Of a stretch of DNA of 64,000 nucleotides, positions 25,904 to 54,237 are shown in pieces. A program made the translations under genes and the position numbers. The DNA lies in contig NZ_CP101466.1 of NCBI RefSeq assembly GCF_024362385.1, positions 2,542,001-2,606,000 on the forward strand. Direction: 5' to 3'. The stretch comes from Arthrobacter sp. DNA4 (GTDB lineage Bacteria; Actinomycetota; Actinomycetes; Actinomycetales; Micrococcaceae). Each line of letters begins with the position of its first letter. Within the stretch, counting starts at the first letter, position 1. The notes below the pieces were generated by a model. The model worked only from the letters and a program-made list of their open reading frames with translations. It was not told where the DNA came from and did no database searches.

Positions 25904-25920
25904 GTGACTTTTGGCCCTAC
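25904..25920 (+). promoter_or_regulatory. DosR-like box 1
   Basis: GTGACTTTTGGCCCTAC, core TGACT-TTT-GGCCC, lies in the gap between the AI-2E gene and the universal stress protein gene, about 71 bp before the latter's ATG. It matches the island consensus GGGACC-TTT-GGCCCT at most positions. Confidence 0.8.
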
Positions 25921-25991
25921 AGCGCCGCCAAGGCCGGGGCCAGTCTTGAAAAGCAGGAAACCCCAGTTCACGACGAGCAGGAAGTGCGGCC

Positions 25992-26858
25992 ATGACATCG
26001 CAAAAACCCATAGCTGCGGGCACCAACGACTCAGCCCAAAGCCAGGCCGCGGTCCTGTGGGCAGCCCGCCGGGCGCACCGGGCAGGCCTGCCGCTGGTGG
26101 TCCTCCACGTGGTGGACGACCGCTGGGTTGCCGAACCCTATCCGTGGTTCGGAACCCTCCAGCAGGCTGGCGAGGAACTCCTCAAGACCGCCGCCGGCCG
26201 CCTGGAAGGAGCGGTTCCCATCACCCCCGCCACGGAACTGCTCACCGGAAGCGTGGGCGGCTCCCTGGCCAAGTACTCCAAGAAAACTTCGATGATGGTC
26301 ATTGGGTCCGGCAGCGGCCACCTCGGCGGCGCCCTTGCCGACCGCGCCCTCCAGGTCGCCACCGCTGCCAAGGTCCCCGTTGCCGTCGTCGGAACCCAGG
26401 ACCTCGAGGGCAGGTCGGGAGTGGTGGTAGGCGTTGACGGCTCACCAGAGGCCACCCAGGCCGTTGCCTTCGCAGCCGCTGAAGCAGACCGCGAAGGAGA
26501 CGAACTCACAGTCGTGTACGCCGTCAGCGTGCCGGATCCCATCATCGATGCCGGCCTGACGCCGGGTGCCCTCGCGGACCTCATCGTGGACGAGGACCGG
26601 GTTGTCCTCTCCGAAACCGTCGCCGGACTGAAGGAAGACTACCCCGACCTCACCGTGCACCAGCGGCTGGAAACCGACAAAGGCCCCGTGGACGCCCTCG
26701 TCGACGCCGCAGCAGGAGCCCGGCTCCTGGTGGTGGGCAGCCGCGGCCGGGGCGCCTTCAAACGCCTCCTGCTCGGTTCCACCGCCCATGGGGTCCTGAA
26801 GCACCTGCCCTGCCCCACCATCATCACCCGGACCCAGGCAGCAACGAACGCCATCTAG
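25992..26858 (+). CDS. universal stress protein, two Usp domains
   Basis: A 288-residue tandem Usp protein. The first domain (about 1-140) begins KPIAAGTNDSAQS; the second (about 145-288) begins GVVVGVDGSPEATQAV. Only the second has the complete ATP-binding pattern G-x2-G-x9-GS (GSRGRGAFKRLLLGS). It has the same architecture as the 38234 gene. ATP-binding Usps act in the cytoplasm in stress survival and growth arrest. The gene is preceded by a DosR-like box and followed by the DUF4389 gene 63 bp on. Confidence 0.93.
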   Translation: MTSQKPIAAGTNDSAQSQAAVLWAARRAHRAGLPLVVLHVVDDRWVAEPYPWFGTLQQAGEELLKTAAGRLEGAVPITPATELLTGSVGGSLAKYSKKTSMMVIGSGSGHLGGALADRALQVATAAKVPVAVVGTQDLEGRSGVVVGVDGSPEATQAVAFAAAEADREGDELTVVYAVSVPDPIIDAGLTPGALADLIVDEDRVVLSETVAGLKEDYPDLTVHQRLETDKGPVDALVDAAAGARLLVVGSRGRGAFKRLLLGSTAHGVLKHLPCPTIITRTQAATNAI

Positions 26859-26921
26859 GCAGCACCGCCCGCTGATCCTCCCACCGCCCTGCCCGCATAC
26901 CCAACGCGGAAGGTTCACCCC

Positions 26922-28547
26922 ATGAAGAAGCCCGCAGCCATCATCATGCTGATCCTCGGGATCCTGATAACGCTTCCGGGCCTGGCCGCGCTGGCGGGCG
27001 GGGCCGTGGCGTCAGCAGTGGGAACGATCCAGGGTGACGGATACCTGACATCCGGCACATCACGGTTCTCCGTGAGTTCATTCGCCCTGACCTCGCCGCG
27101 GGCGGACGCCATTGGAGACGATGTTCCCGGCAGGCTGCCCTTCGACGTCGGCACCCTGCGGCTGCGCGTTGAATCAGTGACCCCGGATAAACCGGTGTTC
27201 GTTGGCATCGCCCCGCAGGCCGACGTCGAACAATACCTGTCAGGGGTGCACCACTCGGAGCTGCTCAACATCCGCCAGCGGCCGTTCCGCGCCGAATACC
27301 GCGATGTACCGGGCGGCAACCCGGCATCACCGCCCGCGGACCAGCGCATCTGGACCGCCTCCGCGTCGGGAACGGGACAGCAGGAGCTGACCTGGAACAT
27401 CACGCCGGGCGCGTGGGAAGTCGTGGTGATGAACGCCGATGCCTCCCCCGTGGTTGATGTCCAGGCGCAGGCCGGCTTCCGGTCCGACCTGATCCGGCCG
27501 TCAGCCACGGGCCTGCTGGTGGGCGGGATCATCGCCCTGCTGATTGGCGTTCCCCTCATCATCTTTGGAGCCGCGGGTCTGGGCCGGCATGCCGCACGCC
27601 CTGACGGCGGGCGCCCCATGGGTGGTCCGGACACGGGTGGGCCGGGCATGGGTGGGCCGGTTTACCGGGAACCGTCAATGAATGGTCCGGCCGCGGCCGG
27701 GCCGCCCTACCCTTCTACAACCCCGGCATCATGGAACCAGCCGGGAGCGCCGGGGACGGCCGGAACGCCGGGGGCCGTCCCGCCACCACCGCCCCAGCAG
27801 TACAGCCCGGTAGCTGCCGCCCCCACCCCCTACCCCTCCAGCCTCTTTGGTGAACTCGATCCCGGCCTTTCACGCTGGATGTGGCTGGTCAAATGGTTCC
27901 TGGCCATACCGCATTTCATCCTCCTCTTCTTCCTCTGGTTCGCGTTCGCCATCACCACCATCGTGGCCGGGTTCGCCATCCTCTTCACCGGCCGCTATCC
28001 GCGGGCACTGTTCGACTTCAACGTGGGCGTCCTGCGGTGGAACTGGCGTGTGGCCTTCTACGCCTACGCCGCCGTGGGCACCGATCTTTACCCGCCGTTT
28101 ACGCTCAAGCGCGCCAATTACCCGGCCGATTTCGACGTGGAGTACCCGCAGCGGCTCTCGCGCGGACTGGTCCTGGTGAAATGGTGGCTCCTGTCCATTC
28201 CGCACCTGCTCCTGGTGGCCGCCTTCGCAGGCACCACGGGAACCATCTGGCGGTCGCAGGCAGAAGACAACGTCCTCGGCGCCACCTATGAACGGGCATC
28301 CGGACCGTCCCTGCTGGGGCTGCTGGTCCTGATTGCTGCAGTGATCCTGCTGTTCACCGGCCGCTACCAGCGCCCGCTGTTCGATTTCATCCTGGGCATC
28401 AACCGCTGGATCTACCGCGTTCTGGTGTACACCGCGCTGATGCGCGACGAATATCCCCCCTTCCGGCTGGACCAGGGCGCCGCCGAACCGGAGGGGCCCG
28501 GAGAGGTGGTTCCCACAGGGGGCGTGCCGCCTGCCGGTGCGCCATGA
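26922..28547 (+). CDS. DUF4389 membrane protein
   Basis: A 541-residue membrane protein. It begins with a signal/TM segment (MKKPAAIIMLILGILITLPGL split over about 30 residues), then an extracytoplasmic beta-rich domain (about 35-190), a second TM (about 193-220), a Gly/Pro-rich linker with repeated GGP motifs, and a C-terminal part with two copies of a TM-pair module, each ending in FTGRYPRALFDF or FTGRYQRPLFDF, which is the DUF4389 signature. Function unknown; its place behind a box-controlled Usp gene suggests an envelope role during stress. Confidence 0.85.
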   Translation: MKKPAAIIMLILGILITLPGLAALAGGAVASAVGTIQGDGYLTSGTSRFSVSSFALTSPRADAIGDDVPGRLPFDVGTLRLRVESVTPDKPVFVGIAPQADVEQYLSGVHHSELLNIRQRPFRAEYRDVPGGNPASPPADQRIWTASASGTGQQELTWNITPGAWEVVVMNADASPVVDVQAQAGFRSDLIRPSATGLLVGGIIALLIGVPLIIFGAAGLGRHAARPDGGRPMGGPDTGGPGMGGPVYREPSMNGPAAAGPPYPSTTPASWNQPGAPGTAGTPGAVPPPPPQQYSPVAAAPTPYPSSLFGELDPGLSRWMWLVKWFLAIPHFILLFFLWFAFAITTIVAGFAILFTGRYPRALFDFNVGVLRWNWRVAFYAYAAVGTDLYPPFTLKRANYPADFDVEYPQRLSRGLVLVKWWLLSIPHLLLVAAFAGTTGTIWRSQAEDNVLGATYERASGPSLLGLLVLIAAVILLFTGRYQRPLFDFILGINRWIYRVLVYTALMRDEYPPFRLDQGAAEPEGPGEVVPTGGVPPAGAP

Positions 28548-28560
28548 CCTTCGGCCCTAG
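28544..28560 (+). promoter_or_regulatory. DosR-like box 2
   Basis: ATGACCTTCGGCCCTAG overlaps the DUF4389 stop codon and lies 62 bp before the next Usp start. Core TGACC-TTC-GGCCC fits the consensus. Confidence 0.8.
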
Positions 28561-28622
28561 CCCCGCCCCACGTACGCAGGCATGATGGGCCCTGACAACG
28601 CGGGTCCGACGAGGGAGCAGAG

Positions 28623-29090: not shown

Positions 29091-29133
29091 ACGGAATATC
29101 GGCGGCAGGGACGGCTGACTTTCAAGGCAGGTG

Positions 29134-30120
29134 ATGGTGGTGCTTACCAGTGAGGCACGACGACGGGCGCCCGCCATAGCGCTCGCCGCCGCCCTGGCGG
29201 TCCTCGCCATCATCCTGGCCCTGTTGCTTCCGGCACCCACGGCCGGGCCGCCGTCGGCCGCCTCTCCGTCCCCAACACCGGCGCTCCCATCGCCGCTGCC
29301 GGGATCAACCAGTACGTCAGCCCCGGGCAGTTCCGCGCCGGCGCAGGAGCCGCAGGAAACCGACACCCCCGAGGCAGGCCAGGCTCCGGTCGAGCCACCG
29401 GTGACCGTGCCGCCGGTTCCCGAACCAGAGCCGCCCGAAGCGCCGGCCCAGCCTCCGGAACCGCCCCAGCCGGCGCCGTTTCCGGTGTCCCTTCGCGGCC
29501 AGGACCTGACCGTTATTCCGGGGGCCGGCCGCGTCGTGGCCCTGACCTTCGATGCTGGAGCCAACGCTGCAGGGCTGCCGAAAATCCTCTCCGCCCTTGC
29601 CGCCCGGGGCGTTGCCGGGACTTTTTTCCTGACCGGCAACTGGGCCGCGAACAACCCACCGGCCGTGGCGCAAATTGTGGCCGCCGGGCACCGTGTGGCA
29701 AACCATTCGATGACCCATCCGGGGTTCACGGGCCTAAGCGACGACCTTATAACGCAGCAGGTGCGCGGTGCCGAGCAGACCATCCTCGCTGCCGGGGCCG
29801 ATCCCAGGCCGCTGTTCCGGTTCCCCTACGGTGAACGCGACACCCGCACCATCGCGGCCGTCAACGCCCTGGGGTACGTGGCCGTGAGATGGACCGTGGA
29901 CACCCTCGGCTGGAAAGGCACCAGCGGGGGCGCCAGCATCCAATCGGTGGCCGACCGCGTCCTGGCCGGGCTGCAGCCCGGCGAAATCGTGCTCATGCAT
30001 ATCGGGTCCAACCCCGACGACGGGACGACGCTGGACGCCGACGCCCTCCCACAGGTCATGGACCGCATCACGGCAGCGGGGTACGGTTTCGCCACCCTCG
30101 ACGCCCTGCTGGGACACTGA
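29134..30120 (+). CDS. polysaccharide deacetylase (NodB domain)
   Basis: A 328-residue membrane-anchored protein with one TM segment near residues 10-32, a long Pro/Ser/Glu linker to about 125, then a NodB domain. The motifs are TFDAG (catalytic Asp), HSMTH (metal-binding His pair), RFPYGERD and WTVDTLGW, with a final LMHIG. It removes acetyl groups from a wall or surface glycan outside the membrane. GTG 29131 and ATG 29134 are adjacent; AAGGCAG suits the ATG. Confidence 0.9.
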   Translation: MVVLTSEARRRAPAIALAAALAVLAIILALLLPAPTAGPPSAASPSPTPALPSPLPGSTSTSAPGSSAPAQEPQETDTPEAGQAPVEPPVTVPPVPEPEPPEAPAQPPEPPQPAPFPVSLRGQDLTVIPGAGRVVALTFDAGANAAGLPKILSALAARGVAGTFFLTGNWAANNPPAVAQIVAAGHRVANHSMTHPGFTGLSDDLITQQVRGAEQTILAAGADPRPLFRFPYGERDTRTIAAVNALGYVAVRWTVDTLGWKGTSGGASIQSVADRVLAGLQPGEIVLMHIGSNPDDGTTLDADALPQVMDRITAAGYGFATLDALLGH

Positions 30121-30137
30121 TCCGGGCAGCCGCACCC

Positions 30138-32765
30138 ATGGCGAAGAGCAAGCACTCCCGGAACAGTCACATGAAGACGAGGCAGCCGGGCCCGTCCGGC
30201 ATTGGCACCGGGCGCGCATACACCGGGGATCCGGCCCATCACGGACTGCCCGTCCACGAGGTGGTGCTGCTGCTTGAGACGGATGCCGCCAGGGGCCTTG
30301 GCCAGGAAGAAGTGGTGCGCCGGCGTGCCCAGTTCGGCGTCAACGAGCTGCCACGGTCACAGCGCGCCGGTATCGTGCGCAAACTCGGACGCCAATTCAA
30401 CAACCCGCTGGTCTATGTCCTGTTGGCCGCCGCCATGGTCACCGTCTTCCTGGGTGAATTCCTTGACTCCGCCGTGATCCTCGCAGTGGTCCTGGTCAAC
30501 ACGCTGATCGGATTCATCCAGGAGGTACGGGCAGAGGCGGCCCTGGATGCCCTCCATTCATTGGTCCGCACGCATGCCGCCGTGATGCGCGGCGGCGAAC
30601 GGAAGCACGTCCCGTCCGAGGACCTGGTCCCCGGCGACCTGGTCCTGCTGGAAGCCGGCGACAAGGTACCGGCCGACCTTCGCCTGGTACGCCTGTCCGC
30701 CCTGCGGGTGGACGAATCCGCACTGACCGGCGAATCAGACCCCGTCGCCAAGGACGAGGTGGTGCTGCCCCAGGTCACACCCGTGGCGGACCGGAGGAAC
30801 ATGCTGTACAGCGGCACCCTGGTGACCGCCGGCACCGGCGCGGGAATCGTCGTGGCCACCGGCGGCGAAACGGAACTCGGCGAAATCCACCGGCTCATGG
30901 GTGCCGTCAGGCCCGTGGCCACGCCGCTGACCCTGAAACTGGCACGGTTCAGCACCACCCTCACCGTCGCCATCCTGGCCCTCGCCGCCGTGGCGTTCCT
31001 CGCCGGACTGGCACACGGCGAACGGCCGGGGCAAATGTTCACGGCCGCCGTCGCCCTGGCCGTGGGGGCCATCCCTGAGGGACTTCCCGCCGCCGTGACG
31101 GTCACGCTTGCCATCGGCGTCCGGCGCATGGCCCGGCGCCGTGCCGTGGTGCGCCGGCTGCCCGTGGTCGAAACGCTGGGCAGCACCACCGTGATTTGCT
31201 CGGACAAGACGGGAACCTTCACCGAGAACCAAATGACAATCCGTGCGCTGTGGACACCCTCCGGGTGGTACGACGTGACAGGCTCCGGGTACGGTCCGGA
31301 AGGACACATCACCCCGTCCGGCGGACAGCAACCGGACGGCCGGAACGTGCCCGCCGGTGCGACACGTCCCGGAGGTGCTGCACTGCCTGGGGACGCCCTG
31401 CTGCCCGGGGATGCTGCCCTGCAGTGGTCCCTGTTGGGCGGAGCAGCCTGCAATGACGCCAGCATCCGCAGGGAGGGGTCCGGCTGGCAGGTGCGCGGTG
31501 ATCCCACGGAGGCCGCGATGCTCGTGGCGGCAGGGAAGGGCGGCATCAAAGTGCAGGACTTCCTGGCTGCCAATCCGCGGCAGTCAGAGCTGCCCTTCAC
31601 GTCCGAGCGGCAGTTCATGGCCACGCTCCACGCCTCCACGCTCCCGCAGGACGGCGGCACCGTGTTCGTAAAAGGCGCCGTGGAGCGTGTCCTGGAACTC
31701 TGCGCCCACGAAATGGACGGCCAGGGCACCGGCAGCCCCGTGCGCAGGCACGCCGTGCTCGGTGCGGCCCATGCGCTCGCGGACAAGGGGCTCCGGGTCC
31801 TTGCCACGGCCATGATGAGCCTTCCGGCCGTCTCGGGTCCCCTCTCGGCCACGGCGTTGCGCGGCCGGATGACCCTGACCGGCCTTCACGCCATGCACGA
31901 CCCACCGCGGGAAGCAGCCGCAGCATCGGTGAAGGCCTGCCAGCGCGCCGGCGTGGGCGTGAAGATGATCACCGGGGACCACGTGCGCACCGCCGTGACG
32001 GTGGCGGCGGCCGTGGGGCTGGCGGCTGACAGCGCCGCAGGGACGGCCCTGACCGGGGCGGACCTGGATGCCATCCCGGCGGACCGGCTGCCGGAGGCCG
32101 TCGAACGGGCCACGGTGTTCGCCCGGGTTTCACCGGAACAGAAGCTTCGGCTCATCGATGCCCTGCAGTCCCGCGGGCACGTGGCCGCCATGACCGGGGA
32201 CGGCGTCAACGATGCACCTGCCCTTCGCCAGGCAAACGTGGGCATCTCCATGGGACGCAGCGGAACGGAAGTGGCCAAGGAAGCATCGGACATCGTCCTG
32301 ACCGACGATGACTTTGCCACCATCGAGGCAGCTGTTGAAGAAGGCCGGAACGTCTTTGACAACCTGACCAAATTCATTGTCTGGACCCTCCCCACCAACA
32401 TGGCCGAGGGCCTGGTGATCCTCGTGGCCATCCTGCTGGGGGCGACGCTGCCCATCCTGCCCACCCAGATCCTCTGGATCAACATGACCACCGCCGTCGC
32501 CCTCGGCCTGATGCTCGCCTTCGAGCCGAAGGAACCGGGACTGATGTCCCGTCCGCCTCGCCCACCGGACCGTCCCCTGCTGACGTGGGCGCTCACCGTG
32601 CGGGTCCTGCTCGTGTCAGCCCTCCTGGTGGCCGGCACGTGGTGGCTCTTTGAACACGAGGTGGCCACCGGCGCCTCTGTTGCCCAGGCCCGCACTTCGG
32701 CCGTAAACCTGTTCGTGGCGGTGGAAGTCTTCTACCTATTCAGTTGCCGGTCCCTGACCCGGTAA
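30138..32765 (+). CDS. cation-transporting P-type ATPase (P2/CtpF-like), C-terminally truncated by a stop codon
   Basis: An 875-residue pump with an N-terminal cation ATPase domain (VHEVVLLLETDAARGL), the actuator TGES motif, phosphorylation Asp in SDKTGT (residue 356), the nucleotide domain, [12 protein letters not shown], and C-terminal membrane helices. Relatives move Ca, Na or other cations. A TAA at 32763-32765 ends translation after SCRSLTR, although homologous sequence continues in the same frame for another 71 codons, so the last membrane helices are missing. The start is uncertain: ATG 30138 or ATG 30171, neither with a clear ribosome site. Confidence 0.88.
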   Translation: MAKSKHSRNSHMKTRQPGPSGIGTGRAYTGDPAHHGLPVHEVVLLLETDAARGLGQEEVVRRRAQFGVNELPRSQRAGIVRKLGRQFNNPLVYVLLAAAMVTVFLGEFLDSAVILAVVLVNTLIGFIQEVRAEAALDALHSLVRTHAAVMRGGERKHVPSEDLVPGDLVLLEAGDKVPADLRLVRLSALRVDESALTGESDPVAKDEVVLPQVTPVADRRNMLYSGTLVTAGTGAGIVVATGGETELGEIHRLMGAVRPVATPLTLKLARFSTTLTVAILALAAVAFLAGLAHGERPGQMFTAAVALAVGAIPEGLPAAVTVTLAIGVRRMARRRAVVRRLPVVETLGSTTVICSDKTGTFTENQMTIRALWTPSGWYDVTGSGYGPEGHITPSGGQQPDGRNVPAGATRPGGAALPGDALLPGDAALQWSLLGGAACNDASIRREGSGWQVRGDPTEAAMLVAAGKGGIKVQDFLAANPRQSELPFTSERQFMATLHASTLPQDGGTVFVKGAVERVLELCAHEMDGQGTGSPVRRHAVLGAAHALADKGLRVLATAMMSLPAVSGPLSATALRGRMTLTGLHAMHDPPREAAAASVKACQRAGVGVKMITGDHVRTAVTVAAAVGLAADSAAGTALTGADLDAIPADRLPEAVERATVFARVSPEQKLRLIDALQSRGHVAAMTGDGVNDAPALRQANVGISMGRSGTEVAKEASDIVLTDDDFATIEAAVEEGRNVFDNLTKFIVWTLPTNMAEGLVILVAILLGATLPILPTQILWINMTTAVALGLMLAFEPKEPGLMSRPPRPPDRPLLTWALTVRVLLVSALLVAGTWWLFEHEVATGASVAQARTSAVNLFVAVEVFYLFSCRSLTR

Positions 32766-32981: not shown

Positions 32982-33023
32982 CACGTGGTCCCACCGGAAG
33001 GCCCCGCAGCCACGGGCCGAAAC

Positions 33024-33040
33024 AGGACCAATGGCTCTCC
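33024..33040 (+). promoter_or_regulatory. DosR-like box 3
   Basis: AGGACCAATGGCTCTCC, core GGACC-AAT-GGCTC, lies between the ATPase remnant and the SHOCT gene, about 83 bp before its GTG. It is a weaker match than the others. Confidence 0.55.
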
Positions 33041-33122: not shown

Positions 33123-33380
33123 GTGTACGGCTGGAACGACGGCATGGGCCTGTGGGGCTATGTCCTGATGAGCATCAGCATGGTGGTGGTCTGGGGAGCA
33201 ATCATCACCGGCATTGTCCTGCTGGCCCGTTCCCTGCGGGCGCCCTCCCCGTACGACGCCCACCCTCAACCCCCTCGGATGGCAGAAGACGTCCTGGCTG
33301 AGCGCTTCGCCCGCGGGGAGATCGACGCTGCCGAGTACCAGAACAGGCTGGCTGTCCTGCGCGGCCAGCCTGGTACCTGA
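33123..33380 (+). CDS. small SHOCT-domain membrane protein
   Basis: An 85-residue protein with one TM helix (about 10-33: YVLMSISMVVVWGAIITGIV) and a C-terminal SHOCT motif (LAERFARGEIDAAEYQNRL). The short helix-turn motif is usually attached to membrane or nucleic-acid-binding proteins and mediates oligomerisation. GTG 33123 has GGAGG eight bases upstream, better than any longer start. First gene of a SHOCT-DUF3040-hemerythrin unit. Confidence 0.8.
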   Translation: MYGWNDGMGLWGYVLMSISMVVVWGAIITGIVLLARSLRAPSPYDAHPQPPRMAEDVLAERFARGEIDAAEYQNRLAVLRGQPGT

Positions 33381-34912: not shown

Positions 34913-34927
34913 AGGGCCAAAGGTCAT
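34913..34927 (-). promoter_or_regulatory. DosR-like box 4
   Basis: Minus-strand ATGACCTTTGGCCCT, core TGACC-TTT-GGCCC, ends about 54 bp before the Usp start at 34858. Confidence 0.8.
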
Positions 34928-34988
34928 CACGGGTGCACCAGTGCCATCGTGCGATGCGCAACACCGGCAGCGACTTGCGCTGCCCGGC

Positions 34989-35002
34989 GGACTTTGGTCC
35001 CT
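34989..35002 (+). promoter_or_regulatory. DosR-like box 5
   Basis: GGACTTTGGTCCCT has the tighter 2-bp centre (GGACT-TT-GGTCC), the same type as at 52159. It lies about 98 bp before the response-regulator start and fits autoregulation. Confidence 0.8.
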
Positions 35003-35100: not shown

Positions 35101-35781
35101 GTGCAGATGCATGAAACTGGGGCTGATGAAGCGGCAGGATCTTCCGGGCAGGTCCGCGTGTTCATCCTTGATGACCACGAACTTGTCCGGCAGGGGCTGA
35201 AAGACCTGCTGGAAGGCGAAGGGTTCCTGGTGGTCGGCGAAAGCGGATCCGCGGCCGAAGCCACGCGGCGCATCCCCGCCCTGCACCCGGACATCGCCAT
35301 ACTGGACGGCCGGCTTCCGGACGGCACCGGGATCGAAGTCTGCCGGGACGTGCGTTCACTCGATCCCCGCCTGCGCTGCCTGATCCTCACCAGCTACGAC
35401 GATGAACAGGCCCTCCGTGGGGCGGTCCTGGCCGTCGCCTCGGGGTACATCCTGAAGCAAATCAGGAGTGATGACCTCCTGGCGGGTATCCGCCGGGCCG
35501 CGGCGGGCGAGTCCCTGTTTGATCCGGGAGTCGAGCAGCAGATCATTGCAGGACTGTCCACGGCACCCACCGACCCCCGGCTGGACGGCCTGAGCGCGCA
35601 GGAGAAAAAGGTGCTGGCCCTGATCGGCCAGGGGTTGACCAACCGCCAGATCGGCGATGACCTGTTCCTGGCCGAGAAAACCGTCAAGAATTACGTGTCG
35701 TCCATCCTGGCCAAACTGGGCTTCGAGCGCCGGACGCAGGCCGCCGTGTACGTCACCAAGAGCTCCACGGACTCTGCCTGA
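35101..35781 (+). CDS. devR: NarL/LuxR-family response regulator, DosR/DevR-like
   Basis: A 226-residue regulator. The receiver domain (about 17-135) has the acidic pocket DDHE, phosphoacceptor Asp69 in AILDGRLPDG, Thr97 and Lys119. The C-terminal helix-turn-helix (about 160-226) carries FLAEKTVKNYVS and ERRTQAAV. The contact residues equivalent to DosR Lys179, Lys182 and Asn183 (here Lys193, Lys196, Asn197) are conserved. DosR and OsdR activate hypoxia/dormancy regulons from near-palindromic GGGACT-type boxes. GTG 35101 has GGAG six bases upstream. Convergent with the kinase, 18 bp apart. Confidence 0.93.
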   Translation: MQMHETGADEAAGSSGQVRVFILDDHELVRQGLKDLLEGEGFLVVGESGSAAEATRRIPALHPDIAILDGRLPDGTGIEVCRDVRSLDPRLRCLILTSYDDEQALRGAVLAVASGYILKQIRSDDLLAGIRRAAAGESLFDPGVEQQIIAGLSTAPTDPRLDGLSAQEKKVLALIGQGLTNRQIGDDLFLAEKTVKNYVSSILAKLGFERRTQAAVYVTKSSTDSA

Positions 35782-35799: not shown

Positions 35800-37533
<1,734 letters not shown>

Positions 37534-37673
37534 CTAAGTGCATGAAACGGAAGTGCCTGCCTCCGCCCCCAATTCCGCCTTCACATGAGCATGAAGGCGC
37601 TTCGCCTCCCATTCTAGGAGAGGTGGGGAGAAAAAACCCTCAGTGAGCTTGTTAATTCGGGGCAGGCGCGCGC

Positions 37674-37689
37674 GGGACCTTCTTCCCTA
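37674..37689 (+). promoter_or_regulatory. DosR-like box 7
   Basis: GGGACCTTCTTCCCTA, core GGACC-TTC-TTCCC, ends 33 bp before the PNPOx-like ATG. Confidence 0.7.
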
Positions 37690-41566: not shown

Positions 41567-41570
41567 CTCT
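41556..41570 (+). promoter_or_regulatory. DosR-like box 8
   Basis: GGGACCTTTGACTCT, core GGACC-TTT-GACTC, overlaps the end of the ATPase gene and lies about 81 bp before hsp20. Confidence 0.75.
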
Positions 41571-44577: not shown

Positions 44578-44594
44578 AGAGTCTTTGGTCCTAG
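44578..44594 (-). promoter_or_regulatory. DosR-like box 9
   Basis: AGAGTCTTTGGTCCTAG on the plus strand (minus: CTAGGACCAAAGACTCT), core GAGTC-TTT-GGTCC, ends 35 bp before ppsA and overlaps the stop codon of the ATPase gene. Confidence 0.75.
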
Positions 44595-47146
44595 CTCCGC
44601 CGCAGCCGCCTCCGGGCCGCTTTGTGGATCCAGTCAGCGACGAGAACGGCCGGGACCGCGAGGAGTGCGATCTGGAATCCTATCGGGGCAGGTGGTGCCT
44701 GGCCCAGCAATTCGGCGAGGTAGGGCACGAACAGGCACACCGCCAGGATGGCCAGTTCAGCCAGCACGGCCCACACCAGGAGCTTGTTGGTGCCCCACCC
44801 CAGTGTCCAGGGCGGCAGGCTGGCACTGCGGCAGGCAAAAGCGTTGGCGAGCTGCCCCAGGACGACGGCGGTGAAGGCGGCACCGGAGGCAGCCATCAGG
44901 AGCCCTGTGTCCGGGACCTGTCCCCGGCTCCAGCCACCCGCAAAAAGGACGGCCGAAAATGCTGACATCTCCATAAACGCCTCCACGGGACCGAGGACGG
45001 CGAATACCCGGATCATCAGTTGCCGGTCCATCAGGTGGCGGCGCTCGGGGGCCCTGGCCAGGATGCGTTGCCCTGGCCGTTCGGCTCCGAGGGCCAGCGC
45101 CGGCAGCAGGTCCGTCCCGATGTCCAGGGCCAGGATCTGCAGGACGCCCAGGGCAAGGGGGAACTGGCCGGTGGAAAGCGCCCAAATCACAAAGGGAGTA
45201 AGTTCCGCCACATTGTCGGTGAGGTGGTAAGTGAGGAACCGGTGGATATTCGCATAGGTTGCCCTGCCTTGTTCGATGGCCGCCACGATGGTGGCGAAAT
45301 GGTCGTCCAGCAGGACCAGGTCGGATGCCTCCCGCGCGACGTCGGTTCCGCTCAGGCCCATGGCCACGCCGATATCGGCCTCACGAAGGGCGGGGCCGTC
45401 ATTGACGCCGTCGCCGGTCATAGCCACGACATGGCCCCGGGCCTGCAGCGCCTTCGCCACCCGAAGCTTCTGTTCCGGCGATACCCTGCTGACCACGATG
45501 CCGTCGCGGTCCAGGAGCGCTCCAAGCATCTGCCCGTCATCCGGAAGGTCCGCGCCCTCCACCACGCATTCGGGAGCTCCGATCAGACCGATCTGCCGGG
45601 CAATTGCGGCCGCCGTGGCGGGATGGTCGCCGGTGATCATGGCGATTTTCAGGCCCGCCCGGCGGGCCGTTCGGATGACTTCGCTGACGTCCGGCCGCGG
45701 CGGGTCATGGAGTCCGATCAAGCCCAACAGCTCCATGCCCGATTCAAGGTCAGCGGCGGGAGCGGTCTGCCATGGACGGGGTGGACCGTCGAGCCCCCGC
45801 CGCGCCACCGCGATCACCCGTAGTCCCCGGGAAGCCATCTCCTCCACTTGGTCCTTGACCGCCGGGGGCACAAACTCGCAGAGGGGAAGCACGGTTTCCG
45901 GGGCGCCTTTGCAGAACAGGTGCGGCCCGGCGATCACGGATTCGCGCCGGCGCACGGGGTCGAACGGCAACCGGCGCGTAAGGGCCGGTTCGGTCCCGGT
46001 GCCAGTCAGCCTCCGCGCGAGGACGTCCAGTGCGGCTTCCATCGGGTCGCCGCGGGCACGCCATTGTCCGCCGTGCAGTTCAGCCCGGCCCTGCGACGCG
46101 GCACGCGCCGCCAGCGCCGCGTCAGCAGCCCTTAGCAGCCCCTGCCCCTTGATTTCCGCTTCCGGGGCATAGCCCTCACCTGTCACCAGGACGGACCCTT
46201 CGGTGGTATAGACCTCGACGGCGTTCATCCGGTTCTGCGTCAGGGTCCCGGTCTTGTCCGTGCAAATGAAGGTCGTGGAGCCCAGGGTTTCCACGGCCTC
46301 CAGGTTGCGGATCAGGGCATTGCGGGAGGCCATCCGCTGCGCCCCCATGGCCAAGGACAACGTAACGGTGGGCAGAAGGCCTTCCGGGACCAGGGCAACC
46401 GCAACTCCAATGGCGAACAGGAACGAATCGCGCCACTGAAACCCCACCAACAGCGATACCAGGAAAAAGAGAGCGGCAATGCCAAGCGCCACCACGGCGA
46501 TGACCCGCACTATCCTGCGCAGCTCCAGCGACAGCGGAGTGGGTGGAGGAATAGCACCGCTGGTCAGGGCCGCTATCCCCGCCAGGCGGGTGTCACCGCC
46601 GGTTGCGGAGACCGCTGCCTCGGCGTCGCCATTGACCAGGAAGGTTCCGCCCCACGCGGAGTCGCCGCCGGCTTTCGGGACCGGCTCGCTCTCCCCGGTC
46701 AACATGGACTCATCCACGGCGCAGGCGGATGCTGAGAGAAGGACGACGTCGGCGGGAACCCGGTCACCGGCGTTGAGCAGCACCACGTCGCCGGTCACCA
46801 GCTCGCTCGCGTGGACTTTGCGCGCCCTGCCATCGCGCCGGACCATCACGTCGGCGGGCAGCAATCCGCGCAGCTTGGCCGCCGCATGCTGGGCACGTTC
46901 CTGCTGGATGTGGGCGAACACTCCGTTGACTATCACGACGACGACGATCGCCACCGCGAGCTGCGGCATGTCCGCGATGAAGGCCAGGCCGGCAGCGCAC
47001 CACAGCATGAGGGCGAAGAAGTGCGTCATCTCCCCCCACAGCTTCCGCCATTGCGGGACCGGTTTTTCCCCGGGCAGCTGGTTGGGGCCAGTCTGCTCCA
47101 GGAGCTGCGCGGCCCGTTCAGAGCTCAGGCCCTCAGCGGTCCTCAC
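44591..47146 (-). CDS. cation-transporting P-type ATPase (P2-type)
   Basis: An 851-residue pump with TGESEPVPK in the actuator, phosphorylation Asp297 in [27 protein letters not shown] and an intact C-terminal helix bundle ending [10 protein letters not shown]. It is related to the 30138 ATPase but is complete at the C-terminus. GTG 47146 overlaps the upstream Usp stop (GTGA), so the pump is translationally coupled to the Usp. Ion unknown; Ca, Mg, K or H are possible. Confidence 0.9.
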
Positions 47147-47604
47147 ACAGCGTCCGCCTCCTGCCCCACCAACAGCACCGGGCACTTGGAGTGGGCCGCG
47201 CAAGCCCTGCTGACCGAGCCCATCGACGACTTAAGCAGCCCGCCCTCGCCATGCCGTCCGACCACCAGCATCTGCGCCCGCCCGCTCTCCTCCACCAGCA
47301 CCTTCGCCGGCGGCCCGAACTTGACGGTCACATCGATGTTCTCCGGCCGCTCCCCCGAAAAGGCCCGGCCCAGGGCATCCTCGACCAGCCGCCCTGCAGC
47401 ATCCTCGAGCCTGGCGGTGAACTGCCGGTCCGCCCCTTCAAGGCGGGACATGACCAGGTAGTCCGGCATCCCGACGCATGAGATGACTTCGAGCCGGGTG
47501 CCCAGGCGGGCTGCCAGCGTGCCCGCGTAACGGAGGGCTGCGGAGGAGTATTCAGAACCGTCCACACCCACGATGACGGGCTTCGCCCCTGTTTCTGCGT
47601 TCAT
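47143..47604 (-). CDS. universal stress protein, single domain
   Basis: A 153-residue Usp with VIVGVDGSEYSS and a complete ATP loop GRHGEGGLLKSSMGS. ATG 47604 is used; an in-frame GTG at 47613 precedes it. It is translationally coupled to the downstream P-type ATPase and is preceded at 35 bp by box 10. Confidence 0.92.
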   Translation of the reverse strand: MNAETGAKPVIVGVDGSEYSSAALRYAGTLAARLGTRLEVISCVGMPDYLVMSRLEGADRQFTARLEDAAGRLVEDALGRAFSGERPENIDVTVKFGPPAKVLVEESGRAQMLVVGRHGEGGLLKSSMGSVSRACAAHSKCPVLLVGQEADAV

Positions 47605-47639: not shown

Positions 47640-47654
47640 AGGGCCGAAAGTCAT
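47640..47654 (-). promoter_or_regulatory. DosR-like box 10
   Basis: Minus-strand ATGACTTTCGGCCCT, core TGACT-TTC-GGCCC, ends 35 bp before the Usp ATG at 47604. Confidence 0.8.
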
Positions 47655-47681
47655 GCCGGCCGGCCCCCGTCCCTGGCTGGC

Positions 47682-49670
47682 TCAGCCGGAAGCAACTGCC
47701 CTTGGCTGCGCTGCCGGTTTTCGGTCAACCCCGCTTTTCCGGTCAGCCCCATGCAATGCCCTCAGCCCGTTCAGGATGGTGGCCAGGTCCACGAGCTCCT
47801 GCAGGAGGGCGCCGGCGACGGCGGGAATGTATCCCGTCATGGCTATGGCCATCAGGACCAGGCTGAGTCCTATCCCGGTCCAGATACTCGCCAAAGCCAC
47901 CGCCACTGTCCGTTTTCCGATGGCCACGGCCTGGGCCACCTTGGACACGTCGTCGAGCATGATCACAACGTCCGCCGATTCACTGGCCGCGGTGGCACCC
48001 TTGGCGCCCATTGCGATTCCCACGTCTGCCGCTGCAAGGACGGGGGCATCATTGACGCCGTCGCCCACCATCAGGACGGGCCGTTCCTGGATGCCGGCCA
48101 CCGTGTTGACCTTGTCCTCGGGAAGGCATTCGGCCTGGACCCGGCCGATTCCCGCTTCCTCGGCGATGTGTGCAGCCGTAGCGTGGGCATCACCGGTCAG
48201 GAGCATGGTGTTCCGGACACCCAGGCTGTTCAGGCGGGCCAGGGTGTCCACGGCATTGCGGCGCAACGGGTCCTTCATGATCAGTGCACCGGCGTACTCG
48301 CCGTCCACCGCCACGTGGACAGCCAGCTGGCCGCTGCGCACGGCTGCCTCCCGGAATCCGGTTGATGAACTCCGCACCAGGCCTGCTTTCCCCACCACCA
48401 CCCGCTGCCCGTCGCAGACGGCGTCCACGCCGTGGGTAGCGCTCTCCGTCGCCTGTTGCACCGTCACCAGTCCAAGGCCGGCGGCCTTGGCGGCTTCAAT
48501 CACGGAGCCTGCGAGCACGTGCGAGGAGTACTGCTCAGCGGAGGCAGCCAACTGCAGGATCCTTCGGCTCCCCAGGGCTTCGCCGTAGCCCGGCGCCAGC
48601 TGGATCTCGTCCAGGACGGGGCGCCCTGACGTGAGCGTGCCGGTCTTGTCGAAGACCGCTGTTTGTGCCTTTGCAAGTTGCTCGAGGGTCCGGGTGTTCT
48701 TGATGATGATGCCTTTGTGGGCGGCCTGGCTCGTGCCGGCAAGAAAGGCCACCGGAGCGGCGATGAGGAGCGGGCAGGGCGTTGCCACCACCAGGACCTG
48801 GGCGAAACGGAGCGGCTCGCCGGACAGGAACCAGGCTGTTCCGGCCATCGCCAGCGCCAGGACGGTGAAGGGAACGGCGTAGCGGTCCGCCAGGCGGACC
48901 ACCGGCGCGCGGCTGTTGGACGCCTTCTCCACCAAGGCGATGATCCGGCTGTATTGGGAATCGGCCGCGCTCGCCGTTGCACGCATGCGGATGGCGGCTA
49001 CTCCGTTCACCGCGCCACTGAGCAGCGTTTGCCCCCTAGTGTGTTCCACCGGCAGGCTTTCGCCGGTGAGCGATGATTCGTCGAGGCTGGCGGAATCGGA
49101 CAGCAGTTCGCCGTCAACAGGTACCAGCTCCGAAGGCCGGACCACCAGAACGTCGCCCGGGGCCACATCACCGATTGGCGTCTCCTCGAGTACAGCACCA
49201 GCCCCTTCACGGTGGGCAAAACGCGGGGCCCGGTCCAGCAGAGACCGCAGTTCACGCGCCGCACGTCCCTGGGCAAAGTTTTCCAGCGCTTCGCCGCCCG
49301 TGAGCATCAGGATCACCACCAGCGCGGCGAGATACTCGCCCACCACCACCGTGCTGGCGATCGCCATCAGGGCCAGGAGGTCGATCCCCCAGCGCCCCTC
49401 CCGCAACGACCGGACCATTCCGGCCGCCCGTACCACCACAATGACGGCCGCGTAGGCGGACGCGAGCACGCGGACCTGAAGTCCCAGATTGAACTGCAGC
49501 AGCACCAAACTGGCCACGAGCACCAGGAAGGTCAGGGCGACGACGGGATACCGCCTGACGAAGCCCCGGGCCTTTTCGACGGGCGAGCCGGCAGGTTCCT
49601 CGTCGTCAAAGCTGCCGGCACTCCCACCGGTTCCCGCAGACGGGGCGGCCTGCTTCCTCATCCGTGACAC
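47682..49670 (-). CDS. heavy-metal P1B-type ATPase with TPC motif
   Basis: A 662-residue P1B pump. About eight hydrophobic helices; the metal-selectivity motif in the membrane is TPCPLL (about 297) in place of the usual CPC/SPC; TGESLP in the actuator; phosphorylation Asp341 in FDKTGT; MVGDGVNDAPVLAAADVG. It has no N-terminal metal-binding domain of the CxxC type. TPC pumps are poorly characterised; Ni, Fe or Co export is possible. GTG 49670 and ATG 49661 are both candidate starts. Boxes 11 and 12 lie in the divergent promoter. Confidence 0.88.
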   Translation of the reverse strand: MSRMRKQAAPSAGTGGSAGSFDDEEPAGSPVEKARGFVRRYPVVALTFLVLVASLVLLQFNLGLQVRVLASAYAAVIVVVRAAGMVRSLREGRWGIDLLALMAIASTVVVGEYLAALVVILMLTGGEALENFAQGRAARELRSLLDRAPRFAHREGAGAVLEETPIGDVAPGDVLVVRPSELVPVDGELLSDSASLDESSLTGESLPVEHTRGQTLLSGAVNGVAAIRMRATASAADSQYSRIIALVEKASNSRAPVVRLADRYAVPFTVLALAMAGTAWFLSGEPLRFAQVLVVATPCPLLIAAPVAFLAGTSQAAHKGIIIKNTRTLEQLAKAQTAVFDKTGTLTSGRPVLDEIQLAPGYGEALGSRRILQLAASAEQYSSHVLAGSVIEAAKAAGLGLVTVQQATESATHGVDAVCDGQRVVVGKAGLVRSSSTGFREAAVRSGQLAVHVAVDGEYAGALIMKDPLRRNAVDTLARLNSLGVRNTMLLTGDAHATAAHIAEEAGIGRVQAECLPEDKVNTVAGIQERPVLMVGDGVNDAPVLAAADVGIAMGAKGATAASESADVVIMLDDVSKVAQAVAIGKRTVAVALASIWTGIGLSLVLMAIAMTGYIPAVAGALLQELVDLATILNGLRALHGADRKSGVDRKPAAQPRAVASG

Positions 49671-49737: not shown

Positions 49738-49752
49738 AGGGCATTTGGCCCC
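49738..49752 (-). promoter_or_regulatory. DosR-like box 11
   Basis: AGGGCATTTGGCCCC, core GGGCA-TTT-GGCCC, lies in the divergent region, 67 bp from the TPC-ATPase start. Confidence 0.65.
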
Positions 49753-49767
49753 GCCCACCCCTACGGC

Positions 49768-49785
49768 ATGACTTTTGGCACTCCC
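49768..49785 (+). promoter_or_regulatory. DosR-like box 12
   Basis: ATGACTTTTGGCACTCCC, core TGACT-TTT-GGCAC, lies 64 bp before the DUF5655 start, 30 bp (three helical turns) from box 11. Confidence 0.75.
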
Positions 49786-50218: not shown

Positions 50219-50233
50219 TCAGGGGTGGGCCCC

Positions 50234-50249
50234 AGGGCCCTATGGCCCT
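50234..50249 (+). promoter_or_regulatory. DosR-like box 13
   Basis: AGGGCCCTATGGCCCT, core GGCCC-TAT-GGCCC, ends 34 bp before the GyrI-like ATG. Confidence 0.65.
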
Positions 50250-50856: not shown

Positions 50857-51210
50857 TCAGGACCCCCGGCGACGGCTGTAGGTCACATCCCAAGGCTGCG
50901 TGCCGCGGCTGGTTTCCAACCATCCGTCCCGGACGATCTCCTGCCGCAGCCGGGTAAGGCTCGCCTCCAGGCCAGGTGCCCACGCCTCCTCGGGAGGCGT
51001 TCGGTTCAGGGGCGGCCCAGGGAACGTATCGCCGGTATAGAGCCGCCGGCCGTCCTCCGCCTTTCCCACGAACCGCAGCTGTGTCCGCCCGTACTGTGAG
51101 CCAAGTGTGTACAGGATCCGCGCCCACCATTTCACGGATGCAGCATCCTCCAGCTCTATTCGCAGCCGCTCCTCCGTGCCGTGGCCTGAATGGGGGCCAT
51201 TTGTCGCCAT
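50857..51210 (-). CDS. hypothetical protein
   Basis: A 117-residue Arg/Thr/Trp-containing protein (LEDAASVKWWARILYTLG; LRFVGKAEDGRRLYTGDTFP; LRQEIVRDGWLETSRGTQPWDVT) that I do not recognise. A strong AGGAGG precedes ATG 51210. It lies beside boxes 14-15 in the divergent region shared with the membrane protein at 51388. Confidence 0.65.
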   Translation of the reverse strand: MATNGPHSGHGTEERLRIELEDAASVKWWARILYTLGSQYGRTQLRFVGKAEDGRRLYTGDTFPGPPLNRTPPEEAWAPGLEASLTRLRQEIVRDGWLETSRGTQPWDVTYSRRRGS

Positions 51211-51268
51211 CTCTGCCTCCTGGTGCGGGACCATGGTTCAATTCAGCAAGCTTCCCAGACCCCGCTGC

Positions 51269-51282
51269 AGGGCCAAGGGTCC
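51269..51282 (-). promoter_or_regulatory. DosR-like box 14
   Basis: Minus-strand GGACCCTTGGCCCT, core GGACC-CTT-GGCCC, lies 58 bp from the 51210 start codon. An overlapping palindrome GGTCC-TT-GGTCA sits at 51278-51289, so the exact register is open. Confidence 0.7.
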
Positions 51283-51318
51283 TTGGTCACGGAACACGGA
51301 AGAACCTGAAGCCCGGTC

Positions 51319-51333
51319 GGGCCCAAAGGCACT
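51319..51333 (-). promoter_or_regulatory. DosR-like box 15
   Basis: Minus-strand AGTGCCTTTGGGCCC, core GTGCC-TTT-GGGCC, lies 54 bp before the membrane-protein start at 51388. Confidence 0.65.
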
Positions 51334-51387
51334 ATCCGGCCCGCGGGTCGGGTAGCAGAGTCGGGGCATGACCAGGAACCGTCCCTC

Positions 51388-52137: not shown

Positions 52138-52158
52138 CTCCCCCGGGCACCTGCGATC

Positions 52159-52174
52159 AGGGACCTTGGTCCCT
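52159..52174. promoter_or_regulatory. DosR-like box 16 (most symmetrical copy)
   Basis: AGGGACCTTGGTCCCT has 7-bp arms AGGGACC and GGTCCCT around a 2-bp centre. It is the most regular copy in the window. It lies 147 bp before the DUF1508 ATG, farther than the others. Confidence 0.8.
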
Positions 52175-52321
52175 AAAAGTGGGGAGGTGGCCTCTGAGAT
52201 GGTGGTTTAGGTCGAAAGGCGCACCACGATGGGGTAGTGCGCCCTGGGTTTTGCCGTGCCGTTTCCGGCATGGCATGCAGCCTCACCACTGGAGGCAGGA
52301 CGATTGAGGAGAACAAGGCTT

Positions 52322-52594
52322 ATGGCAGGTACGTTCGAACTGTTTGTCGATGATGATTCACAGATTCGGTTCCGGCTTGTGATGCCCGATGGACATGTGC
52401 TGGCGGTTTCCGGACAGTTCACGGACAAGCATGCGGCGGCCGCCGCCATCGAGGAGGTACGGGAATGTGCAGGCACCGGCCTGATCCAGGACGTAGCGCC
52501 GCCGCCGCCGAACGTTCTCCTCGCTCCCCCGCAGCACCCGCACTACACCGTCCGCCGCGGGACCCGCAGACTCAACTCCCTCGGCGCCGCCTAG
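52322..52594 (+). CDS. DUF1508 (YegP-like) protein
   Basis: A 90-residue protein with one YegP module: FELFVDDDSQIRFRLVMPDG, then a Gly-containing turn and TDKHAAAAAIEEVREC. E. coli YegP has two copies. Function unknown; the fold resembles small stress or nucleic-acid-associated proteins. GAGGAG lies upstream of ATG 52322. Confidence 0.85.
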   Translation: MAGTFELFVDDDSQIRFRLVMPDGHVLAVSGQFTDKHAAAAAIEEVRECAGTGLIQDVAPPPPNVLLAPPQHPHYTVRRGTRRLNSLGAA

Positions 52595-52612
52595 GTCCGG
52601 GCTGTAAAGGCC

Positions 52613-52631
52613 GACGGCGGAACCCGCCGTC
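52613..52631. terminator. hairpin after the DUF1508 gene
   Basis: GACGGCGG pairs with CCGCCGTC around a 3-base loop, 19 bp after the stop codon, with no T run. It could end the message or stabilise it. Confidence 0.35.
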
Positions 52632-52712
52632 CAGGCCATGCATTCAGCCAGTGGGGCACGTCCAACGACGGGCCCCACTGCTGTGTCCGCAGCGCCGTGT
52701 GCGCCCGCTGCG

Positions 52713-54170
52713 CTAGAAGCCTGATGAGCTGCCGGAGCCGGAAAAGCTGCCGCCGCTGCTGCCGTATCCGGTGGTGCTGCCGCCGCCCCTGGCGGAATTG
52801 ACGCTGCTGACCCCGGTATTGAAGCCGGAGTTGAACGTGGCCACGGAGAAGAACGTGTAGGACGGGTACACCGTGCCAAGGATGCTCGGTTCGTAAGTCC
52901 GCTGCCTGCGGTGGTCCGTGCCCTCATGGGCCGTCTCCATTTGTTCGCGCATCAGGCGTGCCTCGCGGTCATTCCTGGCAAATCCCTGGATGACCGTTTC
53001 GGCATGGTTCTCCAACAGCTCCGAGAGCCGGGAACGCGCCGCATAGAGACGGTCCAGGGCCTCTTCCGGGCTAATCCGCCGGTCGGCCAGTTCAGCGGTC
53101 CACCGCTCAATCTCCCGCAGGCTTTCGTCGCGGAAGGACCGCAGTGCCGCAGCCGTTGCCGAGTCCCCCTGCCCGTGGCGTTTGGCCAGGAGCTGCTCCA
53201 ATCCGGCCAGGTCCTTGCGGAACGGGGCCAACTGCCGGTCCCAGGCAGTGGGCCAGGTGTCGGCGCGGTTCAGGAAGGCGTTGCTGTCCGCGATGACGTC
53301 ATCCAGGGCATCCAGCTCGGCGGCACTGTCCGCGAACTGCCGGGCAAGCTTGAGGTTCTTCCGGCTGCTCAAGGCCCGCCTGCCCAGTGCGTGCACCTGG
53401 TTGGAAAGCTGCGTAACGGCGGCATAGCGGCTAAGGAACGTGCGGTGTTTCTCCAGGACCTGGCTGCCGTAGCGGGATGATTCGGGAATGGTGCCGGCAT
53501 TCAGTTCCGTGACGTCCAGGTCCATGCTGACGTTGGAGTAGCTGCGATCCCCGCGTTCAATCTGCTTTCGGCATCCGGTCCTGGTCACGGCACGGACAAT
53601 CAGCCATGCGGCCGCGCCCAGGGCCGCGGTTCCCGCGGTGACCCAGGCGGTAACCAGGAAGGCCGCGGAGCGGTACCAGGGCTGGTTGATGAGCTCTGCG
53701 CCGCGGCTGATGCCGGCCACGGTGCCGTCCGTCCACTGGGCGTCGCGGAAAAGTTCCTTGGACGCGTCCTGGATGTCGCTGCGCTGCTCGAGCGACACCT
53801 TCCGGTCCTCGCCCATGTACGTCCCCACATGCCGGCCCACGGGGTCGAGCGCGAAGATGAACAGTCCGTCAGCCCATTTTTGGCCGTCCGGGCTGATCCA
53901 CTCCGGATGCCTGGACCGCGCGAATTTCAGGACCTCTTCATTGAGGTTGTCCTCCGCCTTGCCGTTGTAAGTGAAGACGGCAACGCGGGTGGGCTCGTAG
54001 AACTGGATCCGTTCGACGGCGGGCACCAGGGTGTTCTGGTCGAGCACCCCTGCCGTGTCCTCCACAATGACGGCTGCCGGCACCACAGCGGTGCCCGGCG
54101 CCGCCGCCCCCACCAGCAGGGCAGCCAGGGCGAGCACCATCAACACGATCCGGCGCACCATGCTGCCCAT
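52713..54170 (-). CDS. membrane protein with N-terminal TPM-like and long helical region (DUF5129-like)
   Basis: A 485-residue protein: a signal peptide (about 1-28), an extracytoplasmic TPM-like domain (about 30-155), a TM helix near 170-195, and a long cytoplasmic coiled-coil-rich region with a low-complexity C-terminus rich in Ser/Gly (GGGSTTGYGSSGGSFSGSG). Related actinobacterial proteins are annotated DUF5129. Function unknown, probably envelope stress. ATG 54170 has GGGGAGG upstream. It is divergent from the Usp at 54274 with box 17 between them. Confidence 0.7.
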   Translation of the reverse strand: MGSMVRRIVLMVLALAALLVGAAAPGTAVVPAAVIVEDTAGVLDQNTLVPAVERIQFYEPTRVAVFTYNGKAEDNLNEEVLKFARSRHPEWISPDGQKWADGLFIFALDPVGRHVGTYMGEDRKVSLEQRSDIQDASKELFRDAQWTDGTVAGISRGAELINQPWYRSAAFLVTAWVTAGTAALGAAAWLIVRAVTRTGCRKQIERGDRSYSNVSMDLDVTELNAGTIPESSRYGSQVLEKHRTFLSRYAAVTQLSNQVHALGRRALSSRKNLKLARQFADSAAELDALDDVIADSNAFLNRADTWPTAWDRQLAPFRKDLAGLEQLLAKRHGQGDSATAAALRSFRDESLREIERWTAELADRRISPEEALDRLYAARSRLSELLENHAETVIQGFARNDREARLMREQMETAHEGTDHRRQRTYEPSILGTVYPSYTFFSVATFNSGFNTGVSSVNSARGGGSTTGYGSSGGSFSGSGSSSGF

Positions 54171-54222
54171 GTCCCTCCCCACTGCCTAGAATCAGGATGA
54201 AACCAAGGAGCAGGCCGGCCAA

Positions 54223-54237
54223 AGGGCCGAAGGTCCC
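54223..54237 (-). promoter_or_regulatory. DosR-like box 17
   Basis: Minus-strand GGGACCTTCGGCCCT (core GGACC-TTC-GGCCC) matches the consensus at every position but one. It lies 36 bp before the Usp GTG at 54274 and 52 bp before the DUF5129-like start. Confidence 0.85.

Follow-up and report, generated by a model that had tools for sequence, protein, structure and literature searches.

How far does a short near-palindromic box, repeated in front of stress genes of Arthrobacter sp. DNA4, define a regulon, and which regulator would bind it? The boxes were noted in a window of 64,000 nucleotides (the whole stretch of DNA analysed; contig NZ_CP101466.1, positions 2,542,001 to 2,606,000), in a 28-kb island that also encodes a response regulator related to DosR/DevR, hereafter the 35101 regulator after its start, and a GAF sensor histidine kinase. 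We put at roughly 90% the probability that the boxes mark a DosR/DevR (OsdR)-type regulon in this Arthrobacter-group member of the Micrococcaceae, in which the 35101 regulator very probably binds at the box. Boxes, direction, spacing, homology, co-occurrence and conservation were read from the sequence, while we infer binding, phosphorylation, signal, start points and induction. The regulon type itself is already known, and this member is set apart by a lineage-specific half-site and by a promoter layout of unusual clarity.

Box recurrence in the island

The original prediction counted about 17 copies of one box. We aligned the 17 sites as 16-mers, which gave a consensus close to NRKGACYTTNGGCCCT, and scored every one against a matrix of the remaining 16 (leave-one-out), using as background 400 kb of the same genome in 20 stretches and stating the expectation per 29 kb. 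Twelve sites are strong, with expectations of 0.00 to 0.22 (25903, 28543, 33023, 34913, 37673, 41555, 47640, 49767, 50234, 51269, 52159, and 54223). Of the remainder, two are weak (34987 at 1.45 and 44578 at 2.83), two are near chance on the box alone (51318 at 5.95 and 49738 at 13.2), and 35022, with an expectation of 898, is ruled out as a copy.

The boxes are concentrated in the island. At a score of 12, the full matrix, built including the sites themselves, finds 16 positions in the island, 3 elsewhere in the window, and 21 in the 400-kb sample (equal to 1.5 per 29 kb). All five exact matches of RKGACYTTNGGCCCT, a pattern derived from these same sites, in the 4.56-Mb chromosome lie inside the island, as do 8 of the 21 matches with up to one mismatch. 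The consensus first proposed, NGGGACCTTTGGCCCT, gives with up to two mismatches 7 matches in the island, none in the remaining window, and 4 in the 400-kb sample. Exact GGGACCNTNNGGCCC has no match genome-wide. No excess was seen with a literal 16-letter consensus whose central positions were left free (12 versus 14.9 expected); its spacing model was wrong, and matrices were used instead. The motif is thus not equally frequent elsewhere or within genes, as judged from the whole-genome pattern and the 400-kb matrix sample.

Most copies are intergenic, as had been claimed for nearly all of them: 14/17 sites have no coding overlap, although intergenic sequence makes up only 2489 of 29001 bp, in a gene list that was made by hand with reset starts and omits a SHOCT-like open reading frame (ORF) at about 33124–33380. 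The other three (28543, 41555, and 44578) reach into the 3' end of the adjoining gene.

Promoter layout

A second regularity emerged unsought. When boxes from the window and its relatives with a distal half reading RTGAC, in place of GGGAC, were aligned, A was found at +39 in 40/46 and T at +43 in 40/46, the two fixed letters of an ANNNT −10 element. The first −10 base is never T in these 46 boxes, and is T in 20/138 training promoters. We counted ANNNT at offsets 30–49 from boxes picked without regard to downstream sequence, each box being counted once. In the Micrococcaceae loci plus the window, it stands at +39 or +40 in 98/106 boxes, with 42 at +39 and 5 at +40 for RTGAC boxes (n = 49) and 30 and 21, respectively, for the others (n = 57). 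These sets include 5 and 9 boxes from the window, and once these 14 are removed the element is still in place for 42/44 RTGAC boxes and 43/48 others. Every other offset, and the opposite side, gives 0–5 ANNNT, the other offsets averaging about 2–4. In 59 further loci (L042–L100; by their titles Nocardioides, Micromonospora, Actinoplanes, Kitasatospora, Streptomyces, Frankia, and others), ANNNT is in place in 57/91 boxes, comprising 38 at +39 and 17 at +40 of 87 non-RTGAC boxes and 2/4 RTGAC boxes. In the window itself, 14/17 sites carry ANNNT at +39/+40 in their better-scoring orientation, where base composition predicts about 6% per site by chance; those without it are 35022, 51269, and 51318.

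This fixed spacing gives the box a direction and a place: with the start set 7 nt past ANNNT, its centre falls at about −42.5, over the −35 position. A model combining box and −10 element, trained on relatives' promoters (only ANNNT-bearing matches, with a seed matrix from this window), finds at a score of 16 or more 14 island sites versus 0.29 expected. The predicted start falls on an ATG, or one base away from it, for PNPOx-like 37723, ppsA-like 44543, usp (universal stress protein) 47604, GyrI-like 50284, and ORF 59727–60335, which would imply leaderless messages and several reset gene starts. The starts first listed for hsp20, ppsA, usp 47143, and the GyrI-like gene lie upstream of the predicted transcription start. 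A similar pile-up of ATG at the predicted start is seen in relatives, in 15/67 Micrococcaceae, 10/37 genus, and 16/80 L042–L100 promoters.

Relatives, regulators, and rival explanations

The window matrix also recognizes the dosR neighbourhoods of relatives. At a threshold of 14 it gives 58 matches versus 9 for the reversed matrix in 21 loci (L021–L041), 33 versus 7 in 22 loci (L042–L063), and 58 versus 2 in 37 loci (L064–L100), compared with 9 versus 12 in the 400-kb sample of its own genome. The regulator (at least 69% identity) is present in 25/37 genus genomes, own included, and exact RTGACYTTNGGCCCT occurs in 25/25 of those but in 1/12 genomes without it (Fisher p 1.4e-8, kinship ignored; one of the 12, G026, is 68% complete). 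The genus genomes are related, and two loci (L028 and L135) are 90–95% identical over most of their length, so these counts are not independent events. In several genomes (e.g., G001, G006, G011, and G028) exact boxes recur near the window's spacing; in others they are scattered. In G018, G020, G010, and G030 they lie scattered round the chromosome on a single strand per genome, 2–5 each, and likewise in the draft genome G024; 12/13 scattered boxes inspected in the first four carry ANNNT.

The genes downstream are also conserved. With promoters oriented by the model, which was trained on these same loci, a homologue of an island gene lies on the same strand within 850 nt in 54/67 Micrococcaceae and 29/37 genus cases, mainly usp and PNPOx, with dosR too in the Micrococcaceae set, and never on the antisense strand only. 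Crude ORF calling gave mixed directions and was dropped in favour of −10 and homologue placement (46 RTGAC boxes: downstream only 21, opposite only 10, both 12, neither 3; 35 others: 17, 1, 7, and 10, respectively).

The best solved relative of the 35101 protein is DevR/DosR (3c3w, E 3.7e-64), followed by VraR (2.5e-34), and its best named relatives, 65–75% identical, are mostly from Arthrobacter and kin. Its D69, K193, K196, N197, and T212 align with DevR D54, K179, K182, N183, and T198, of which we take Asp54 to be the phospho-acceptor and K179, K182, and N183 to contact DNA. For the 35800 kinase, the best solved relative is the DevS GAF domain (2y8h, E 5.9e-54); H137 and Y159 align with DevS H149 and Y171, presumably haem-pocket residues, and H377 falls in the HisKA_3 stretch. 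As in DosR/OsdR regulons, a box of the GGGAC-N4-GKCCC kind precedes many units, including usp genes and the regulator. The idea of a DosR-like regulon, first put forward from the motif, is supported as the best reading by a regulator nearest DevR, a kinase nearest DevS, and a box that tracks the regulator.

Could another protein own the boxes? The genome holds a second, likewise convergent pair (G000:C1:1210208–1212597, L141), with a regulator (1211980–1212597) 54% identical to the 35101 protein and a kinase (1210208–1211866) 61% identical to the 35800 kinase, near divergent box plus −10 sites at 1213745 (minus strand) and 1213818 (plus strand). This paralogue at 1.212 Mb might be the main binder, or both might compete, so that the island regulator would not be sole owner. 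We regard this as unlikely, since 12 genus genomes with a single regulator match (E ≤ 1e-50) still hold exact boxes (G005, G010, G013, G014, G015, G018, G021, G023, G024, G027, G030, and G031), and since a box, weak without its −10 element, also precedes the island regulator's own gene. Besides this genome, twelve of the genus carry a second match to the regulator, the best being 49–59% identical (only the regulator was searched for).

Less probable still is a reading in which DosR is a bystander and the boxes belong to a different regulator, of the NarL/LuxR family or unrelated. A first look finds 51 related candidates in the genome, and sequence alone does not reveal which DNA a regulator prefers; however, the box co-occurs with the DosR orthologue across the genus, dosR itself lies downstream of 11/67 Micrococcaceae promoters, and both the RTGAC boxes and the window consensus retain G6 and C8, termed invariant for DosR boxes in the accessible part of PMC2947987. 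Chance, a compositional artefact, or a dispersed repeat gathered by a palindrome-primed eye, to which the weak sites, the literal consensus scan without excess, and the genome-wide reversed-letter controls might point, has a negligible probability in view of the leave-one-out scores, the clustering, the fixed −10 spacing, and the conservation.

Several observations nevertheless weigh against a DosR-type regulon read from these boxes or would favour chance. Among them, 5/17 sites are weak or absent as boxes, and the published OsdR consensus is just modestly denser here (3.45 versus 1.75 per 10 kb). The reversed-letter control of RKGACYTTNGGCCCT at up to one mismatch is commoner (37 matches) than the pattern, which, being made from its own sites, is informative in its clustering and not in its total count. 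A two-mismatch genome pattern gives at least 202 matches versus at least 515 for its control, the excess being attributed to the different make-up of reversed letters, and no density is drawn from it; box plus −10 with three mismatches gives 144 versus 325. Matrix matches in the 400-kb sample carry ANNNT in 11/40 versus about 2 at other offsets, which may reflect true targets or bias, and a further ATG peak at +42, overlapping the −10 element, is probably a by-product of the −10 T. Direction is less clear for boxes taken without the −10 element: among 68 boxes a homologue lies downstream of 49 and on the other side of 24, i.e., downstream only in 32, other side only in 7, and both in 17. In L042–L100, an island-gene homologue is downstream of just 19/80 promoters. 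One genome (G035) has an exact box (G035:C73:255032) but no regulator at E ≤ 1e-50, no scoring box faces the kinase gene by leave-one-out matrices or the box plus −10 model, and the second DosR-DosS pair may share or own some boxes. Finally, RTGAC is found in 5/17 window boxes and is possibly a weaker-binding form: for OsdR of S. coelicolor, the available text of PMC5069765 reports that a G-to-T change at position 3 cut in vitro binding by about half, which is the position altered in RTGAC if the paper numbers along the 16-mer.

Regulon members, mechanism, and known systems

Under the DosR-type reading, the features of the window are as follows, each box being listed with the gene that it is predicted to serve.

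25903–25918, plus strand: box CGTGACTTTTGGCCCT, −10 CAGTCT, for usp 25992 (matrix, ANNNT, promoter model).
25992–26858, plus strand: universal stress protein with two Usp domains (Pfam), followed by a DUF4389 protein at 26922–28547.
28543–28558, plus strand: box CATGACCTTCGGCCCT, −10 CATGAT, for usp 28623 and perhaps also the 29131 deacetylase and 29889 P-type ATPase.
33023–33038, plus strand: box CAGGACCAATGGCTCT, −10 AATACT (+40), for the SHOCT-like ORF (SHOCT assignment read from sequence, not Pfam), DUF3040, and hemerythrin genes (matrix, ANNNT).
34913–34928, minus strand: box GATGACCTTTGGCCCT, −10 CACGCT, for usp 34358 (minus strand), start moved to about 34858.
34987–35002, plus strand: box GCGGACTTTGGTCCCT, −10 AACAAT, for dosR itself (putative autoregulation); weak as a box, backed with the −10.
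35101–35781, plus strand: DosR/DevR-like response regulator, receiver plus GerE/LuxR (Pfam PF00072, PF00196; 3c3w).
35800–37482, minus strand: DosS/DevS-like GAF sensor histidine kinase (GAF, HisKA_3, HATPase_c; 2y8h), convergent with the regulator.
37673–37688, plus strand: box CGGGACCTTCTTCCCT, −10 TAGGCT, for PNPOx-like 37723, with ATG at the predicted start, then usp 38234 and P-type ATPase 39119.
41555–41570, plus strand: box TGGGACCTTTGACTCT, −10 GATGGT, for hsp20, start moved to about 41652.
44578–44593, minus strand: box TAGGACCAAAGACTCT, −10 CACAAT, for ppsA-like 42126, ATG 44543 at the predicted start; weak as a box, backed with −10 and start.
47640–47655, minus strand: box CATGACTTTCGGCCCT, −10 GATCGT, for usp 47143, ATG 47604 one base off the predicted start, then P-type ATPase 44591.
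49738–49753, minus strand: possible box CGGGGCCAAATGCCCT, TAGGTT, for P-type ATPase 47682 (minus strand); near chance as a box, ANNNT in place.
49767–49782, plus strand: box CATGACTTTTGGCACT, −10 GAGAGT, for DUF5655 49850 (matrix, ANNNT, promoter model).
50234–50249, plus strand: box AGGGCCCTATGGCCCT, −10 AAGGCT, for the GyrI-like gene, ATG 50284 at the predicted start.
51269–51291, minus strand: two overlapping boxes, 51269 AAGGACCCTTGGCCCT and 51276 CGTGACCAAGGACCCT, for ORF 50857–51234 (minus strand); ANNNT in place for 51276 only.
51318–51333, plus strand: possible box CGGGCCCAAAGGCACT, CAGAGT, for DUF4386 51388; near chance as a box, which alone scores better in the opposite orientation (promoter score 13.5 in plus orientation).
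52159–52174, plus strand: symmetric box AGGGACCTTGGTCCCT, −10 GATGGT (+40), for DUF1508.
54223–54238, minus strand: box CGGGACCTTCGGCCCT, −10 CATCCT (+40), for DUF5129 52713–54182 (minus strand).
60371–60386, minus strand: box AGGGACATTCGGCACT, −10 CAGACT (+40), ATG 60335 at the predicted start of ORF 59727–60335 (minus strand); outside the island first delimited.

Two earlier assignments change: the 54223 box is oriented to DUF5129 and not to usp 54274, which it was said to precede, and the other 36 kb, thought to hold no convincing copy, contain a plausible one at 60371. Four P-type ATPase genes lie in or beside these units (29889–32765, 39119–41566, 44591–47203, and 47682–49670).

Box plus −10 with up to two mismatches matches 38 places in the genome, 11 of them in the island. 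A flavodoxin gene has such a site (4344973), and a box at 348899, with a poor −10, precedes a small ORF and a usp gene; among the genome hits selected for inspection, many have a gene downstream, and some lie inside genes or lack family matches. Candidate divergent DosR-type promoters lie at 2953322/2953377 (L140 9350–9391 = G000:C1:2953350–2953391), with a zinc alcohol dehydrogenase gene on one side and, on the other, an ORF labelled PNPOx-like from its letters alone. Usp domain matches number 19 in the genome, 9 in the window and 10 elsewhere. In view of the sites elsewhere, the regulon probably extends beyond the island, which would be its dense core.

We propose that the GAF kinase, probably haem-binding, would sense low oxygen, NO or CO, or redox state, and would phosphorylate the response regulator. 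A dimer of the latter would bind the 16-bp box with its centre about 42.5–43.5 bp before the transcription start and 23–24 bp ahead of the A in a poor ANNNT −10, replacing the −35 element and recruiting RNA polymerase (class II activation). This would turn on usp, hsp20, PNPOx-like, ppsA-like, hemerythrin, and P-type ATPase genes as well as the regulator's own gene.

RTGAC replaces GGGAC in 49/106 Micrococcaceae boxes (window included) but in 4/91 elsewhere. It is associated with usp, the target of 21/27 assigned RTGAC boxes versus 7/22 others (p 0.0017, kinship ignored; 19/68 boxes have no assigned target). It is tempting, if speculative, to suggest that in the Arthrobacter lineage the box was polarised by remodelling of its distal half from GGGAC to RTGAC, preferred before usp. 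Half-site asymmetry within a rigid box-to-−10 spacing would then set the direction and strength of the hypoxic response, because the regulator kept its DNA-contact residues, with the second DosR-DosS pair as a second input. Box variants and box-free relatives form a natural series useful for probing the role of the half-site. More generally, the promoter rule (box, 23–24 bp, ANNNT, and often a leaderless start) can be used across several actinobacterial families to predict both targets and transcription starts. The system would add common soil Micrococcaceae, many of them harmless and growable, to the bacteria with a dormancy-type DosR regulon, which has been studied mainly in mycobacteria and Streptomyces. 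In the literature covered, which takes in few subscription journals, we found nothing linking DosR to Micrococcaceae and no such regulon in Arthrobacter.

The mycobacterial DevR-DevS/DosT system supplies the nearest solved relatives of both proteins. In M. tuberculosis, however, the kinase and regulator genes are co-directional, while here they are convergent; the usp/P-ATPase-rich island, the half-site change, and the second pair are further differences. According to the accessible portions of these papers, the proximal DevR box in mycobacteria overlaps −35 (PMC3029386), as the fixed spacing to ANNNT predicts here from predicted start points, and in M. smegmatis the −10 is ANNNT and a stringent motif, GGGACTTNNGNCCCT, resembles our GGGAC boxes (PMC6448022). 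Putative DosR boxes are also reported in Rhodococcus equi (PMC2947987, in part). PolS-PolR of Microlunatus phosphovorus is an actinobacterial two-component system, treated by its authors alongside DevS/DosT, but the available part of that study describes PolR as binding direct repeats, GTTCACnnnnnGTTCaC, and not the box found here (PMC6754071). The closest parallel is OsdR-OsdK of S. coelicolor, for which the sections consulted of PMC5069765 likewise describe a 16-bp box and, round the regulator, a stress island whose genes include usp, PNPOx, hemerythrin, and pyruvate phosphate dikinase. Unlike the OsdR regulon, no nitrate reductase was found among the island proteins scanned (no genome-wide search was made). 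The OsdR consensus, AGGGCCGATCGGCCCT, is symmetric, while the boxes here have a YTTN centre and, in many cases, an RTGAC distal half; yet the OsdR site at SCO5979 is letter-identical to the 54223 box.

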